Below, piece by piece: positions 10,734 to 35,922 of a stretch of 42,100 nucleotides of DNA. This DNA comes from Candidatus Bipolaricaulota bacterium (GTDB lineage: Bacteria; Bipolaricaulota; Bipolaricaulia; RBG-16-55-9; DRXL01). Numbering within the stretch: the stretch's first letter is position 1; each line of letters starts with the position of its first letter. A program made the position numbers and the translations under genes. The DNA lies in assembly GCA_025061735.1 (NCBI GenBank), contig JANXAU010000051.1:1-42100 (forward strand). The letters are read 5' to 3'. Below the pieces are notes generated by a model, which was given only the letters and a program-made list of their open reading frames with translations, was not told where the DNA came from and did no database searches.

Positions 10734-10737
10734 AGGG

Positions 10738-10816
10738 CTGATAGCGGATTTCGGTAGCCGATGCAGCTGATTCTTTTACTAAATCTGTTCAATTAGCTAC
10801 TGAAATCTGCTGTCAG
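10738..10816. repeat. Long inverted repeat after the PKD cluster
   Basis: The 20-base arms are 10738-10757 (CTGATAGCGGATTTCGGTAG) and 10797-10816 (CTACTGAAATCTGCTGTCAG). They differ from perfect complements at three positions, and all three become G-U pairs in plus-strand RNA. The RNA stem would be 20 bp without a break, with a 39-base loop. It begins five bases after the stop of the PKD/Ig-like gene. No T-run follows, so it is either a processing/stabilising hairpin or a small mobile palindromic element. Confidence 0.65.
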
Positions 10817-10832
10817 CTTCTGCACTCTCTTC

Positions 10833-29082: not shown

Positions 29083-29712
29083 ATGCGTCTTGTCAGAGTC
29101 TGTCTGTTGGGAGCCATCGTATGGTCTTTATCGGGCTTGGGAATAGCGCCCTCAGGACAGTCGAGCGGCACAGTAGTTGACGTGAATATTCAGAATTTTG
29201 CTTTCGTTCCCCAGAATATCACAGTTGCGCTGGGGACTACCGTGCGCTGGACCAATCGAGACAGTGCACCCCATACCGTGACCAGCACCGCGGGGATCTT
29301 CGATTCGGGAACGATGAACCGCGGGGCGACCTTCACGCACACGTTCAATACTCCCGGCGAGTTCCCCTATATCTGCGCCTTCCATCCCAGTATGACAGGG
29401 AAGGTCACAGTGGCCGTAGGGGTCGCGTTGATTCATAGCCTGAAAGACAGCGCGATCTACCCCTCGGTGATAGAGCTGAAGCTGGGACAACCCGTGCAGC
29501 TCTTCAACACCGCGACCGATGGCGTCCTCCCCGGTGTCGTCATCAGCAGCGACGAAGAGGGCCGAAACCCCGTCTTCGGAGTGAGGCCGTTTAACGTAGA
29601 GGTGGGCAAAGTAACGACCGTCGAGTTCACGCCCGATAGGGCCGGGACGTTCTTCGTCACCCACAGGCCGCATGGGCACAATATCGTGGGCCGGATTGTC
29701 GTCAAGAATTGA
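29083..29712 (+). CDS. Exported double cupredoxin, second domain without copper ligands
   Basis: A 209-residue secreted protein. After the signal peptide (about 1-27) the first domain is a plastocyanin/amicyanin-type cupredoxin with a full type 1 copper set: His64 (APHTV), Cys98, His101 and Met104 (YICAFHPSMTG). Such proteins carry electrons outside the membrane. Residues 114-209 form a second cupredoxin-like beta domain whose ligand loop reads FFVTHRPHGHNIVG, with no Cys, so it should not bind type 1 copper. AGGAGGG lies ahead of the ATG. The following gene encodes another cupredoxin, four bases from overlapping in its longest frame, so the two are co-transcribed. Confidence 0.85.
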   Translation: MRLVRVCLLGAIVWSLSGLGIAPSGQSSGTVVDVNIQNFAFVPQNITVALGTTVRWTNRDSAPHTVTSTAGIFDSGTMNRGATFTHTFNTPGEFPYICAFHPSMTGKVTVAVGVALIHSLKDSAIYPSVIELKLGQPVQLFNTATDGVLPGVVISSDEEGRNPVFGVRPFNVEVGKVTTVEFTPDRAGTFFVTHRPHGHNIVGRIVVKN

Positions 29713-29747
29713 AAGACTCTTTAAGAGAGACGATAAAGGAGGCACCC

Positions 29748-30578
29748 ATGACTAAGATGCGTGTACTCAGTTTGTCTGTTCTGGCGTTGGTGATCGTCTT
29801 AACGTTCGCGCTTGGAGAACGAGCTTTGGCTCCCTATCACGGTGGCTCGCCCCACCAGACGCAAATCCCAAGCGCCCAAGAGGTGATCGTGCGCATTGAA
29901 GGGAGCAACGATCCCTATGGATACGGAACGGCCTCGTTCAATCCCGCTACCGTGAATATCGCGCCGGGGACGACCGTGACATGGGTGAATGAAGACTCTA
30001 TCGCGCACAATGTGACGAGCCGCGATGGACTCTTTGACTCGCCTGTGCTCAACCGCGGGCAGCGCTTCAGCTATAAGTTTGATCGCCCCGGCACTTACGG
30101 ATATTTCTGCAAAATTCACCCCGCGATGACCGGCCAAGTGATCGTCGCGGGTCAAGCCGGGCCAACGCTGCTGACGGCTGTGCTCACGGCGGGCCAAGAA
30201 GTTCCAGCTCCTAAAGCAGAGACCCCGCTGGGAGCTATCGGGGCAGCGGCTATCGTGCTGAACGCTAACAGGACCGAGCTAAGTTTCTTTCTGGGATATA
30301 GTGGGCTGAGCGGTTCCCCAACGGCGATGCACTTCCATCGCGGCAAGCCGGGCGAGGCCGGCCCGATCGTGCGCACGATCTGCCCGGTGCTAGGGGTAGC
30401 CTGCCCCACAGGCACGAGCGCGACTCTCAGCGGGGTTTGGAGACGGGACGACGCTCGGGAAGCGCTCACGTCTGATCTTGTAGATGCGCTGCTCAAGGGC
30501 GAACTCTATATTAATATTCACACGAGTCTCAATCCTCCGGGCGAGATTCGCGGGCAGGTCAAACCCTATCAGCCGTAG
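29748..30578 (+). CDS. Exported cupredoxin-CHRD fusion protein
   Basis: A 276-residue protein starting at ATG 29748 (AAAGGAGG upstream; the longer frame from 29709 is rejected). A signal peptide (about 1-27) leads to a cupredoxin with ligands His87 (IAHNV), Cys121, His124 and Met127 (YFCKIHPAMTG). Residues about 140-276 form a CHRD domain (LTAGQEVPAP, MHFHRGKPGEAGPIV, LYINIHTSLNPPGEIRGQV). CHRD domains are named from chordin and occur in bacterial surface proteins of unknown role. The fusion places a redox copper domain next to a possible binding domain, probably at the cell surface. It follows the double cupredoxin after 35 bases. Confidence 0.87.
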   Translation: MTKMRVLSLSVLALVIVLTFALGERALAPYHGGSPHQTQIPSAQEVIVRIEGSNDPYGYGTASFNPATVNIAPGTTVTWVNEDSIAHNVTSRDGLFDSPVLNRGQRFSYKFDRPGTYGYFCKIHPAMTGQVIVAGQAGPTLLTAVLTAGQEVPAPKAETPLGAIGAAAIVLNANRTELSFFLGYSGLSGSPTAMHFHRGKPGEAGPIVRTICPVLGVACPTGTSATLSGVWRRDDAREALTSDLVDALLKGELYINIHTSLNPPGEIRGQVKPYQP

Positions 30579-31141: not shown

Positions 31142-32065
31142 ATGAAGAGTTGGTGGCTCTCGCTGGCACTTCTGGGGGGTTTGACCGTCCCCAAGCCCGC
31201 GCTCGCCGAGCCTGCGGCTCTTGCGCTCTCCAAGACGCATTGGGTACTGCTGCACGGCGTCTGGCCCGGATCGAGTCGCGATTGGCGCCTGGTTGCGCCT
31301 TTGTTGCAAGAGCAAGGAGCAACCGTCTGGCGCCCCACGCTGCCGGGACGCGTCGGGCTCTTTCCCTGGGCCGACAATATCGCCCACTATGTGGTGGAGA
31401 ACGCTCCCTCCAATCTCTACGTGATCGCTCACAGCTTCAGCGGCGCTGCAACGCTCTTGCTGTTGCGCACCGCGTATGAGCTTCAACACGGCGATCTAGA
31501 AGCACTTATTGCACACTTAGACTGTGACGCGTTTACGGGTCGCGCAGCTTATGCGTGTCGTCAGCTTCGGGAGGGCTGGCAGCAGCTCGTAGCAGACCGA
31601 GCGCGTGCGGCGCGTTGGATTCAAGCGGCGCAGAAGATCAAGCATCTCTTTCTCTATCATCCGGCGTTGCGGGGGGCCTGTGGGGCGTGTTGGGATCGGT
31701 GGGGCTTGTGGGGCGGCGACGCCACGGCTTCCCTCTGTCTGCTGGCGAAGATCGCCGATTGGCTCTTCACGCCCCTCGAGCGCGTCACGTGGCGGGGCGC
31801 GATTGCCATCACCAATCTCTACGGCGGCTCCGAATGGATGCTCTCGCTCTGCGGCCTGCACCAGAACGATCTCGTCCTGGGGCTGGAGCAGCAGCGCTTA
31901 TTCGTAGAGGGGCATGGCTACCGAGAAGTCTTGGTAGGGAATCAGTTGCACTTTTCGTTTGCGATGCGACGCAGCGCGGCCCAGCGGCTGATAGAGCTGC
32001 TGGGGGACCGCGTGCAAGTCCCCCACGAGCAGAAGGAGGTCTCCGATGGGCTTCTCCGGCGTTGA
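31142..32065 (+). CDS. Exported alpha/beta hydrolase (lipase-like)
   Basis: A 307-residue protein with a signal peptide (about 1-22, PKPALAEPA). The hydrolase start VLLHGVWPGSSRDWRLVAPLLQ contains the oxyanion HG. The nucleophile elbow reads AHSFSG, so the GxSxG motif is relaxed to AxSxS. LFLYHPAL and a late LHFSF could include the catalytic Asp and His. It is unusually rich in Cys (about eight, for example CDAF, YACRQ, GACGACWD), which suggests disulfides. The gene overlaps the acyl-CoA dehydrogenase gene by 20 bases. The substrate, perhaps an ester feeding the acyl-CoA route, is only an inference from position. Confidence 0.72.
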   Translation: MKSWWLSLALLGGLTVPKPALAEPAALALSKTHWVLLHGVWPGSSRDWRLVAPLLQEQGATVWRPTLPGRVGLFPWADNIAHYVVENAPSNLYVIAHSFSGAATLLLLRTAYELQHGDLEALIAHLDCDAFTGRAAYACRQLREGWQQLVADRARAARWIQAAQKIKHLFLYHPALRGACGACWDRWGLWGGDATASLCLLAKIADWLFTPLERVTWRGAIAITNLYGGSEWMLSLCGLHQNDLVLGLEQQRLFVEGHGYREVLVGNQLHFSFAMRRSAAQRLIELLGDRVQVPHEQKEVSDGLLRR

Positions 32066-33209
32066 TTACTTCGGGTTAGATGCGCTCTTGACTCCTGAGC
32101 AGAGGCTGATTCGCAACACCGTCCGCCAGTTCGTAGATGAAGAAGTACTCCCCATCATTAAAGAGTCTTTTGAAGCCGGACGCTTCCCTACCCAGCTCAT
32201 TCCCAAGATGGCCAAGCTGGGCTTGCTGGGCGCGACGCTCAAGGAGTACGGCGGCGCGGGGATCGACGCGATTGCGTATGGGCTGGCCATGCAGGAACTA
32301 GAACGCGGCGATTCGGGGGTGCGCAGCTTCTGTTCGGTGCAGAACGGCTTGGTGATCTATCCCATCTATACGTTTGGCAGCCCAGAGCAAAAAGAGCGTT
32401 GGCTGCCCAAGCTCATTCGGGGCGAAGCCGTGGGCTGCTTTGGGCTGACGGAACCCGAGCACGGCAGCGACCCCGGCGCGATGGAGACCGTCGCCAAGCG
32501 CGACGGCAATTATTTTATTCTCAACGGCACCAAAGCATGGATCACCAACGCGACGCTGGCCGACGTTGCTATCGTCTGGGCCAAGCTCGACGGGGTGATC
32601 CGGGGCTTTCTCGTAGAGCGCGGCACCAAGGGCTTCTCCGCGGCGAAGATCGAGCACAAGCTCTCGATGCGGGCCTCCGATACGGGAGAGCTTTATCTGA
32701 ACGATTGTCGCGTCCCCAAGGAGAACCTTCTTCCCCATGCCGAAGGCCTCAAAAGCCCCCTGATGTGTCTCAACCAAGCGCGCTATGGGATTGCGTGGGG
32801 GGCCGTCGGCGCGGCGATGGCCTGTTACGAAGAAGCCCTTCAATACGCCAAAGAGCGCATCCAGTTCAACAAGCCGATCGCGAGCTTCCAGCTCGTCCAG
32901 CAGAAGCTCGTGGAGATGCTCACCGAGATCACCAAAGCGCAACTGATCTGCTATCGCTTGGGGCAGCTCAAAGAGGCCAACCAAGTGAAACACACCCAAA
33001 TCTCTCTAGCCAAGCGCAACAACGTTGCTATGGCGCTACGCTGTGCCCACCTCGCTCGCGACATCCTAGGGGCCAACGGCATCACCCTCGACTACCACGC
33101 CATGCGCCACCTGGTCAATCTTGAGACGGTCTACACCTACGAAGGCACGCACGATATCCACACCCTGATCCTCGGTTCTGACATCACCGGGATCGAATCG
33201 TTTCGCTGA
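32046..33209 (+). CDS. gcdH-like: Acyl-CoA dehydrogenase, glutaryl-CoA dehydrogenase-like
   Basis: A 387-residue FAD flavoenzyme. [15 protein letters not shown] and [16 protein letters not shown] bind flavin and substrate. [34 protein letters not shown] and [13 protein letters not shown] are typical of the glutaryl-CoA dehydrogenase branch; the Glu of YEGTHDIH is the catalytic base. It would oxidise (and perhaps decarboxylate) glutaryl-CoA or a related acyl-CoA, passing electrons to ETF. AAGGAGG lies ahead of ATG 32046, inside the hydrolase gene. No ETF genes are in the window. Side-chain specificity and decarboxylation cannot be read with certainty. Confidence 0.92.
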
Positions 33210-33223
33210 ACGCGCCTTGGTGA

Positions 33224-34372
33224 ATGGAAGATCTTGACGCTCTGGGGAGACTGCTGCGCAAGCACCGCGAGCAGGCGCATCTGACGCGGGCGCAGTTGGC
33301 ACGCCGCGCGCGGATCTCCGCGAGCTTTGTCACGTATCTCGAACAGGGCCTCCGCCGTCCTTCGGCCGCGATGATCGCGCGGATCGCCCAAGCCCTCGGG
33401 CTGCGCCCCGATCAGCAAAGAGAGCTATTGCAGAGCGCCGGATACGCTTCCCCCGAAGAGATCGCGCAAGTTTCAGGGATTCAGGGGATCTTGGAGGAGA
33501 TCGCCGCGCTCTCTCCCCCAGAGCGCGAGGAGCTGATCGCCGAGATACACCGGCTCTTAGGGCGCTGGCAGGAGCTGCGCGCCAAGAGCCTGCGCAAGGT
33601 CGTCATCCCCGTCGCGGGCTGGCAACCCCGTTTGCTCTCGCCTTCTCAGCTCGGGCAGATGCTCCGCCCTGCCCTTGAAGAGATCGTCACCGCGGGTCTT
33701 AAAGAGGCGATCTTGGTCCTCGCTCCCGGCCGCCCCGCCCCGCAGATCGCTCCCCCCAAAGACCTCAAGGTGCGCCAGATCGTGCAAGAACCCCAACTGG
33801 GCCTGGGTCACGCGATCGTGATCACCCAGGGCTTGGTAGGCGATGAACCCTTCGCGATCCTCCTGCCCGATGATATCATCCTAGAAGACCGCGCCCGCCC
33901 GCTCCGCCGCATGATCGCGCTCTACGAGCGCTACCGCTGCAGCATCGTGGCGGTCACCGAGGCCGAAGAGGCTGCTGATTTTAAGAACTACGGCGTCGCT
34001 ACACTGGGGGAGCGCCTAGAAGAAGATCTCTCTTGGGTAGAAGCGCTGGCCGAAAAACCCCGCGGCCGAGAGATCGCGGGCCTGACCATCGTGGGGCGCT
34101 ATATCGTCACTCCCCAGATCTTCGAAGCACTGCAAGCAACCCCGCCCGACCCCAACGGCGAGCTTCAGCTCACCGATGCGCTCAGTTTGCTCTTGCAGCG
34201 CCAGCGCATCGGCGCCTATCGCTTTGAAGGGCGGCTCTTTCGTGTCACCCCCATCAAGATGCTTCTAGAAGCGCTTATCGAAGCGCTCGACGATCAGCAG
34301 CCCGGGCGCTTGGAGCGCGCGATGGCGATTACTAAGAACGCGCTCCAAGAGTTGGGCAGGCTGCGCGCGTGA
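33224..34372 (+). CDS. XRE-type regulator fused to a degenerate GalU-like nucleotidyltransferase domain
   Basis: A 382-residue protein. Residues 5-65 are an XRE/Cro helix-turn-helix ([22 protein letters not shown], layout only; [10 protein letters not shown]). A helical linker follows (75-122). Residues 125-360 match UTP-glucose-1-phosphate uridylyltransferase: [63 protein letters not shown] and [14 protein letters not shown]. The nucleotide loop GxGTRxLPxTK is changed ([12 protein letters not shown], 132-143), the EMLP lysine region is lost, and the late metal Asp (DxGxK) is replaced by [12 protein letters not shown] is kept. It probably binds a nucleotide sugar or UTP as a signal and regulates transcription. 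It follows the dehydrogenase after 14 bases. Confidence 0.85.
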
Positions 34373-34401
34373 TTGACGTCTCTGGGTTTATCTGTTAGAG
34401 T
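34373..34401 (+). promoter_or_regulatory. Promoter of the IorA-like gene
   Basis: TTGACG (34373-34378), directly after the XRE gene stop, and TAGAGT (34396-34401) are 17 bases apart. Start near 34408 leaves almost no leader before GTG 34411/ATG 34414, and no ribosome binding site is visible. Confidence 0.55.
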
Positions 34402-34413
34402 GTCAAGCGGGTG

Positions 34414-35922
34414 ATGAGTGTGACGGCACGCGAGGCGTTGGTACAGACCCTCAAGGAGAACGAGATCGCGTTGGTCACGGGCGTCTACGGCGACCCTGTC
34501 ACCGCACTGTTGGATGAGATGGCGCGGCAGGGGCTGCGCGTGGAGATCAGCATCGAGGAGAAGGTGGCGTTTGCGCAGGCGCTGGGGGCATCGGTGGCCG
34601 GCAAGCGCAGCGTGGTCGCCGTGAAGCAAGTGGGGATCAATGTGCTGGCCGATCCATTGGTGACGTGTGTGACTCACGGGATCGGGAACTCTCTGCTGTT
34701 GATCGCGGGGGATGACCCCGGCGCGGAGAAATCCCAGAACGAGCAAGATTCCCGATGGTACGCGAAATTGGCGCAGATTCCCGTCTTGACGCCCCCCGGC
34801 CCTGAACTGGTCAGCGAGGCTGTCGTTGAAGGGTTGGATCTGTCGGCGGCGCTGGGGATCCCGGTGATGCTGCAAGTGACAGGGCGATTGCTGCAAGGGC
34901 CGGGACGCGCGAGTGAGACGCCGGTCGCTGCCGATGGGGCGTTTGTGCGCCAGCGCGCGTGGGGGAATCTCATCTTGGATCGCTATAAATATTTCTATAA
35001 AGAGATCTATTCCCAACTGACGGAGCTGGTCGAAGATTCTCCCCTGCATCAGATTAAGACGGCGTCGGGGGCGCGGCGCGGTGTGATCTCCTGTGGGTTT
35101 GTCTCCACGCTCGTAGCAGAAGAGCATCACTTTGCGCTCGGCTATGCCCATCCGTTGCCGGAGCGCCAGCTGGTCGAGTTCTTGCGCCCGCTGGAGAGCG
35201 TCTTAATCGTCGAAGAGATCGCCCCGATCGTTGAGGAGGCCGTGGGTGCTCTAGTGGCGCGCCATCGGTTGCCGACGAAGGTGCTGGGGCGGCTGACGGG
35301 GCACCTGCCCCGCATCGGCAAATTAGAAGCCGAGCATCTCAAACAAGCGTGGGAGCGCCGTCCTGATGGGCCACATCTGGATATTCAGCCCCACGTAAGC
35401 GGCGGGATTTTAGAGCTGCCCTGCGGCGGGTTCGAGCCGCTCTATCAGGTCTTGGACGAGCTGCTCCCCGAAGATTACTTGGTCGCCGGCGATGTCGGCT
35501 GTTCGATCTTGCACGGGTTCTTCCCCCCGTTGGTGGTGGACACGGCGTTCAGCTTGGGGACCTCGATCTCGACGGCGGCGGGGCTGTCGCTGGATGGGCG
35601 CAAGGGAATTGCGATTATCGGCGACACGGGGTTTGTTCACTCCGGGATCACGGGGCTGCTAGACGCTGTTGAGCATGGGCACAATATTTTGGTGATCGTG
35701 CTCTATAATAGAGCTTCGGCGATGACGCCGGGAGCGCAGCCGATTCCGGGGCTGGGGCGCGTACCGGAGCTTATCAGAGCCTGCGGGGTGAGCGCCGTTG
35801 ACGAAGTAGAGATAGAAAAGATCTCGGCCGAAGAGCTGAAAGCGCTCTTGCAGAGGCGTCTGAGCGAGCGCGGGGTGCACGTGCTGCTGGCGCACGCGCG
35901 CCCCCAGAAATTATATAGCTAG
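34414..35922 (+). CDS. iorA-like: IorA-like TPP-dependent oxidoreductase subunit without ferredoxin domain
   Basis: A 502-residue protein matching the alpha subunit of indolepyruvate:ferredoxin oxidoreductase. The pyrimidine half has EEKVAFAQALGASVAGKRSVVAVKQVGINVLADPL and LLIAGDDPGAEKSQNEQDSR (layout only); the TPP half has GDVGCSILHGFFPP, GTSISTAAGLS, GDTGFVHSGITGLLDAVEHGHN and YNRASAMTPG. The enzyme converts arylpyruvates from aromatic amino acids to arylacetyl-CoA. Usual IorA proteins exceed 600 residues and end in a domain with two 4Fe-4S clusters. Here there are no such CxxC motifs, and no iorB is nearby. It may use a separate ferredoxin subunit or be a related decarboxylase-type enzyme. 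ATG 34414 is chosen over GTG 34411. Confidence 0.85.
   Translation: MSVTAREALVQTLKENEIALVTGVYGDPVTALLDEMARQGLRVEISIEEKVAFAQALGASVAGKRSVVAVKQVGINVLADPLVTCVTHGIGNSLLLIAGDDPGAEKSQNEQDSRWYAKLAQIPVLTPPGPELVSEAVVEGLDLSAALGIPVMLQVTGRLLQGPGRASETPVAADGAFVRQRAWGNLILDRYKYFYKEIYSQLTELVEDSPLHQIKTASGARRGVISCGFVSTLVAEEHHFALGYAHPLPERQLVEFLRPLESVLIVEEIAPIVEEAVGALVARHRLPTKVLGRLTGHLPRIGKLEAEHLKQAWERRPDGPHLDIQPHVSGGILELPCGGFEPLYQVLDELLPEDYLVAGDVGCSILHGFFPPLVVDTAFSLGTSISTAAGLSLDGRKGIAIIGDTGFVHSGITGLLDAVEHGHNILVIVLYNRASAMTPGAQPIPGLGRVPELIRACGVSAVDEVEIEKISAEELKALLQRRLSERGVHVLLAHARPQKLYS

Follow-up and report, generated by a model that had tools for sequence, protein, structure and literature searches.

The regulator encoded at positions 33224-34372 joins an XRE helix-turn-helix to a domain derived from GalU, in which elements needed for catalysis have been lost and most of the ligand pocket has been kept. 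Our preferred reading, with a probability that we put at roughly 0.6, is that the XRE-GalU protein represses gluconeogenesis and senses a ligand of the nucleotide-sugar or glucose-1-phosphate type. The window, meaning the whole stretch of DNA that was analysed (42,100 nucleotides), is the entire contig C55 of a 1.64-Mb genome (G000), and the regulator gene is laid out on it as follows.

33224-34372, + strand: XRE-GalU regulator gene, an exact open reading frame of 382 amino acids, with 7 further orthologues
33239-33427, + strand: XRE helix-turn-helix, residues 6-68 (Pfam HTH_31), with model helices 2-71 at a mean pLDDT of about 90 or more
33449-33586, + strand: helical linker, residues 76-121, with a long helix at 98-120 (from the model)
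33587-34249, + strand: GalU-like pseudoenzyme domain, residues 122-342 (from profile matches, fold and tree)

Domain architecture and distribution

The fusion of a helix-turn-helix with a GalU-like domain, which a preliminary description had read from the sequence, is real. Residues 6-68 match HTH_31 (E 7.5e-16, 58.6 bits against a cut-off of 27) and the protein also scores above the cut-off for HTH_3 (43.4 bits against 23), which places it in the XRE family, and the NTP_transferase profile covers residues 145-328 (E 1.8e-12, 47.8 bits against 21.2). The NCBIfam galU model (TIGR01099) aligns with residues 181-342 at 144.2 bits, far below its curated cut-off of 326.8, and the match spans model positions 94-253 only. 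Scores also fall below the cut-off for GalF (TIGR01105; 68.8 bits against 659.2) and for the BzdR/BoxR model NF006015, which aligns with residues 4-73 only (30 bits against 204). With a DNA-binding domain and an enzyme domain that lacks catalytic residues, the protein belongs to the descriptive class of enzyme-derived regulators.

An AlphaFold model built from 48 sequences (pLDDT 85.3) finds GalU crystal structures as its best matches in the PDB, with E values down to 2e-20; since GalU sequences in the alignment may steer the model towards the GalU fold, the match indicates compatibility more than it gives independent proof. Read in this way, the structural comparison with GalU that the preliminary description had suggested has come out in its favour, the modelled fold appearing to match that of the enzyme. 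An initial prediction made from the 8 orthologues only was poor (pLDDT 54) and was replaced by the 48-sequence model. Phylogenetically the domain falls with GalU and apart from the RmlA-like enzymes (support 99/95), and the stem that leads to it is long (1.85 changes per site); long branches meet in this tree, so that the exact placement of the domain is not firm.

The search for more XRE-GalU fusions, also suggested earlier, gave 7 further full-length orthologues in two Bipolaricaulota genera. Two are from the same genus (g1; G001 and G002, with 93 and 86% identity to the G000 protein) and five come from a sister genus (g2; G003, G005, G006, G007 and G008, 61% identity), within which the linker is the least conserved part of the regulator. 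With the window's genome included, the fusion occurs in 8 of about 100 genomes of the phylum and in 2 of 39 genera; the class and phylum searches covered an identical set of 100 genomes, and in the other 92 no XRE-GalU fusion was found, the next-best matches being ordinary GalU proteins of about 300 amino acids. A scan of 84,980 species with two short peptide patterns, which would miss divergent fusions elsewhere, returned just 7 orthologue records above 60% identity, and the remaining matches in other phyla were ordinary GalU, RmlA or GlmU, as judged by the start of the reading frame. Purifying selection acts on the GalU-like domain, with dN/dS values of 0.06-0.18 and a remodelled loop that is nearly invariant, which argues that the changes in the regulator are not the product of chance or decay. 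A long stem followed by low dN/dS fits rapid change at the origin of the domain and constraint afterwards.

Loss of the catalytic elements

The changes relative to GalU are found at three places in the gene.

33614-33643, + strand: remodelled nucleotide loop, residues 131-140; GTRFLPATKA of GalU is deleted between W133 and Q134, and the loop is invariant in 8 orthologues
33744-33748, + strand: place of the second deletion, behind residue 174, which removed 25 residues from the helical insertion of GalU (alignment to GalU)
34241-34243, + strand: R340, which replaces the late metal Asp; R in 8 of 8 orthologues, D in 40 of 40 enzymes

The five GalU landmarks that had been quoted as retained are all present, and the GxGTR loop and the late metal Asp, which had been described as gone, are indeed absent. 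Alignment of the loop residues reveals an exact 10-residue deletion after W133 in all eight orthologues, the deletions having been placed by comparison with a true GalU of the same class. Of the two metal Asp residues, the one at D216 is present and the second has become R340, a comparison made between the 8 orthologues and 19 GalU plus 21 RmlA-like proteins. The lysine region with its EMLP motif was likewise said to be gone; it has certainly changed, with Lys becoming Arg and Glu becoming Leu in every orthologue, but it is remodelled from QPKEMLP to QPRLLSP rather than simply absent. In PaUGP, the G11A and R15A substitutions have been described as crucial (PMC11005391), and mutants of the homologous Arg lost 86% or more of their activity (PMC4643126). 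It is therefore probable that the GalU-like domain of the regulator no longer catalyses the reaction.

The retained ligand pocket

Three segments of the domain carry residues that line the ligand site in GalU-type enzymes.

33785-33814, + strand: retained segment, residues 188-197, with uridine-side contacts Q188 and G193 (alignment; contacts from PMC7961091)
33869-33874, + strand: D216, the first metal Asp, and D217, which contacts glucose, both retained (alignment)
34052-34060, + strand: retained EKP, with E277 as glucose contact and K278 as diphosphate contact (alignment)

The reference list of UDP-glucose contacts is that of Bacillus subtilis YngB (PMC7961091), transferred to the regulator by motif and by phmmer end points. 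The contacts map to A131, G132, R136, L137, Q188, G193, D216, D217, G257, E277, K278 and V290, the last being the counterpart of YngB Val204, and 10 of the 12 are kept in 8 of 8 orthologues. The exceptions are R136 and L137, where Lys28 and Glu29 of the uridine site have been replaced by Arg and Leu, again in every orthologue, so the ligand may not be UDP-glucose itself. The glucose and diphosphate contacts of GalU (D217, G257, E277, K278 and V290) are present without exception in the eight proteins. To judge from these alignments, the sugar and phosphate side of the GalU-derived pocket persists, and a nucleotide sugar or a sugar phosphate is a plausible class of ligand. None of the proteins encoded in the ten family genomes scores above the galU cut-off, and G000 and G006 each have an rmlA_long enzyme, which makes dTDP-glucose or glucose-1-phosphate as likely a ligand as UDP-glucose. 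The loss of catalytic elements, the survival of most ligand-binding residues and the GalU fold of the model together support the suggestion that the sensor of this XRE regulator is a recruited enzyme fold.

The predicted operator and its target promoters

In genus g2 the regulator gene is divergent from ppsA, which encodes PEP synthase, in 5 of 5 genomes with the gene. The intergenic region contains a TTCACTTTGTGAA palindrome flanked by TTGA(C/T)N and TATA(C/G)T. Another TTCACTTTGTGAA copy follows just downstream, and a third forms part of the -35 of the regulator's own promoter (TTGACAAAGTGAATA), the promoter hexamers (-35 and -10) having been read by eye. The search pattern TTCACWNWGTGAA, derived from g2 only, detects one palindromic site in each of the five g2 genomes and one in G000, and none in G001, G002 or G009, while the reversed pattern has zero sites across 10 genomes. 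The sole exact site in G000 is located before ppsA on contig C7, as TTGACA-TTCACTTTGTGAAATATT-TATAAT, in a promoter region at C7 1777-1870, with the regulator on another contig. A second G000 site is found 44 bp upstream of the first, and G002 has two one-mismatch sites before ppsA with the same 44-bp spacing. The upstream ppsA site in g1 is the counterpart of the -35 site of the g2 regulator. The divergent order of ppsA and regulator may thus be the ancestral one, from which the regulator gene would have departed in g1, leaving the operators behind. In G000 a dispersed palindromic repeat occupies the place where the regulator promoter would have stood.

Protein and predicted operator go together, with PEP synthase found in 7 of 8 regulator genomes, the exception being G001, which is 75% complete, as against 1 of the 18 other genomes searched with an identical threshold. 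Other matches include an exact one in G004, which has no regulator, that falls inside a reading frame. The G009 match, also within a reading frame, was set aside, as were other one-mismatch sites in G002, G005 and G006, mostly within coding sequence (dnaK among them). In G016, a genome without the regulator, the only sites near ppsA are unconvincing ones with two mismatches. The predicted operator at ppsA is conserved and nearly genome-unique. An operator-like TTCACAAGGTGAA is also seen in one genome, G005, just before a gene for an AMP-binding protein of the acyl-CoA synthetase type (L145 1556-1568, G005:C2).

Sites with at most one mismatch number three in G000, two of them at ppsA and one, TTGCTC-TTCACTGCGTGAAGTCT-TATAAT, at the gene for fructose-1,6-bisphosphate (FBP) aldolase/phosphatase (PF01950, 516 bits), from which it is separated by two small reading frames. 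The promoter region of this gene in G000 is at C31 2370-2420. The same layout, TTGCTC-TTCACAGTGTCAAGCCGT-TATAAT, precedes this gene in G002, and no clear operator is seen at it in g2. The pattern TTSACNNNGTNAAN{3,6}TANANT occurs only at the ppsA and FBP aldolase/phosphatase promoters in G000 and G002 and only in the ppsA/regulator intergenic region in g2; it was designed after the sites had been seen and is a description, the independent test being that the g2-derived TTCACWNWGTGAA finds ppsA in G000. As predicted targets, the ppsA and FBP aldolase/phosphatase promoters have good support from conservation.

In G005 and G006 a nucleotidyltransferase gene lies directly before the FBP aldolase/phosphatase gene (L159 2119-4292 and L160 1802-3978), with rmlA_long in G006, and coordinates suggest the same adjacency in G003, G004, G009 and G016, an order that would link sugar-nucleotide synthesis to gluconeogenesis. 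The dispersed palindromic repeat, of 75-85 bp, is present many times over in G000, G001 and G002 and was not detected in G006; copies are found at 10737-10819 of the window and beside the ppsA operator (L148 at about 1866-1942, G000:C7). This position, and a partial match beside the FBP operator, led us to ask whether the repeat carries the operators. The idea was rejected in view of the many copies, the location of the operator outside the repeat limits, and the operators of G002 and g2 that have no repeat.

Neighbouring genes

Two features flank the regulator in the window.

32046-33209, + strand: acyl-CoA dehydrogenase gene, upstream, 14 bp before the regulator; adjacency in this genome only
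34373-34401, + strand: promoter-like TTGACG-N17-TAGAGT of the IorA-like gene, read by eye; conserved in three g1 genomes, with no operator

An operon with a hydrolase and a glutaryl-CoA-dehydrogenase-like enzyme had been put forward as a clue to function, and the adjacency proves to be confined to this genome. About 3.3 kb with other genes separates the acyl-CoA dehydrogenase from the regulator in G001, and the regulator region of G002 holds no match to the hydrolase or acyl-CoA dehydrogenase genes; the dehydrogenase and the regulator are probably not functionally linked. The promoter of the IorA-like gene, offered as further context, fares no better. The gene (34411-35922, 38 bp away here) follows the regulator in 3 of 3 g1 genomes and in none of g2, and a scan of the window for the operator gave 15 two-mismatch sites against 11.9 expected, none beyond chance, the IorA promoter included. 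Regulation of the IorA-like gene is thus unsupported. Its product, a TPP enzyme of 503 amino acids, scores 275 bits against an IOR_alpha cut-off of 651 over model positions 8-528 of 595.

Other genes were noted near the regulator. In G001 (L035 10255-13296) a gene resembling that for the alpha subunit of methylmalonyl-CoA decarboxylase and a gene for the beta subunit of a sodium-pumping decarboxylase lie upstream of it, and in G002 a similar carboxyltransferase gene is divergent from it. At 29083-30578 the window encodes two adjacent secreted proteins that are cupredoxin-like by sequence motifs.

Proposed mechanism and alternatives

The XRE-GalU protein is likely to be the binder of the operator. 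As a dimer, its XRE domain would bind TTCACNNNGTGAA between the -35 and -10 of ppsA and, in the window's genus, also between those of the FBP aldolase/phosphatase gene, and in the sister genus it would cover the -35 of the regulator's own promoter as well. The location of the predicted operators between -35 and -10 points to repression rather than activation. The GalU-derived domain would make no UDP-glucose and would instead signal how much nucleotide sugar or sugar-1-phosphate is present. Both PEP synthase and FBP aldolase/phosphatase catalyse gluconeogenic steps and the GalU pocket would read their distant product, which makes end-product repression the simplest scheme; the ligand would most simply be a co-repressor, with ample activated sugar shutting down two committed gluconeogenic steps. 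That a dead GalU gauges activated sugar and represses both steps through one operator, with the Arg in place of the metal Asp allowing sugar phosphates to be read without catalysis, is a more tentative proposal, for which we allow slightly less than an even chance.

It is unlikely, if worth entertaining, that the rebuilt pocket instead accommodates a central metabolite such as PEP, pyruvate, fructose-1,6-bisphosphate or a CoA ester. The nature of the predicted targets, ppsA and FBP aldolase/phosphatase, speaks for such a ligand, as does the Arg in place of both Lys28 and the late Asp, which would suit a metal-free phosphate, and BzdR, an analogue built from XRE and shikimate kinase, senses benzoyl-CoA and not shikimate (PMC3602430); the glucose-side contacts D217, G257, E277 and V290 have nevertheless been kept. 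We also find doubtful the notion that the domain is a dimerisation or structural scaffold that senses nothing, in which case the same promoters would have a repressor that is constitutive or level-controlled. GalU enzymes are oligomeric (PMC11005391), XRE factors need a dimer and the nucleotide loop has been deleted, all of which would suit a scaffold, but a scaffold alone would not need pocket residues and ten contacts are invariant in the 8 orthologues where the linker varies.

Ownership of the operator by another regulator, with XRE-GalU controlling only itself or neighbours such as the IorA-like gene, would accord with the constant position of that gene directly behind the regulator in g1. 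It appears distinctly improbable, however, given that the g2 operator is found in the intergenic region of the regulator itself and overlaps the regulator's -35, that the ppsA promoter of g1 retained it once the gene had moved, and that neither the window nor the IorA promoter has a site above chance. Very improbable indeed is an active nucleotidyltransferase with a rearranged site, making the protein a bifunctional enzyme-regulator. The first metal Asp, EKP and GLGHA are kept and a maker of UDP-glucose is not obvious where no protein passes the galU cut-off, yet GxGTR and the second Asp are missing, the loop residues and the homologous Arg matter as greatly for activity as described above (PMC11005391, PMC4643126), and the genome has rmlA_long. 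For the preferred reading, a repressor that senses activated sugar, both the identity of the ligand and the sign of its effect are our inference.

Relation to known systems and significance

Cra/FruR of E. coli is a sugar-responsive regulator of ppsA and gluconeogenesis, with a protein family and sensor unrelated to those of XRE-GalU. TrmB of haloarchaea (PMC10817205) is also sugar-responsive and acts on ppsA and gluconeogenesis through an unrelated family and sensor domain, although it activates gluconeogenic genes where repression is proposed for XRE-GalU. GalU (TIGR01099) shares with the regulator its fold and most pocket residues and is the closest kin of the domain in the tree; the regulator differs in having no GxGTR loop and no helical insertion, an Arg at the second metal Asp and an added DNA-binding domain. 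GalF of enteric bacteria (PMC4643126) is a GalU relative in which an altered N-terminal loop has cost most of the activity; it differs from the regulator in that its loop has the original length, some activity remains and a DNA-binding domain is absent. The closest parallel in design is BzdR/BoxR (PMC3602430), which likewise has an N-terminal XRE domain, a linker and a C-terminal enzyme-derived domain with its activity lost, and which represses metabolic genes, as would be expected here. There the enzyme is shikimate kinase and the genes are those for benzoate; here it is GalU, with gluconeogenic predicted targets and a different operator. The XRE-GalU regulator would work like BzdR, yet is not a member of the BzdR family. 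BzdR, which combines XRE and a dead shikimate kinase, makes this kind of protein a known one; the open-licence literature searched contained neither a GalU version nor the targets and operator predicted for it.

The protein offers a datable case of an enzyme becoming a sensor, in which one deletion removes the catalytic loop and one Asp changes to Arg, followed by strong purifying selection. It may also provide a module with which to sense sugar nucleotides or sugar phosphates. We know of no characterised regulator of gluconeogenesis in the Bipolaricaulota, an uncultured and poorly known phylum, and the XRE-GalU protein, with a predicted operator present as a single exact copy per genome, would give these bacteria a testable circuit for the control of gluconeogenesis.
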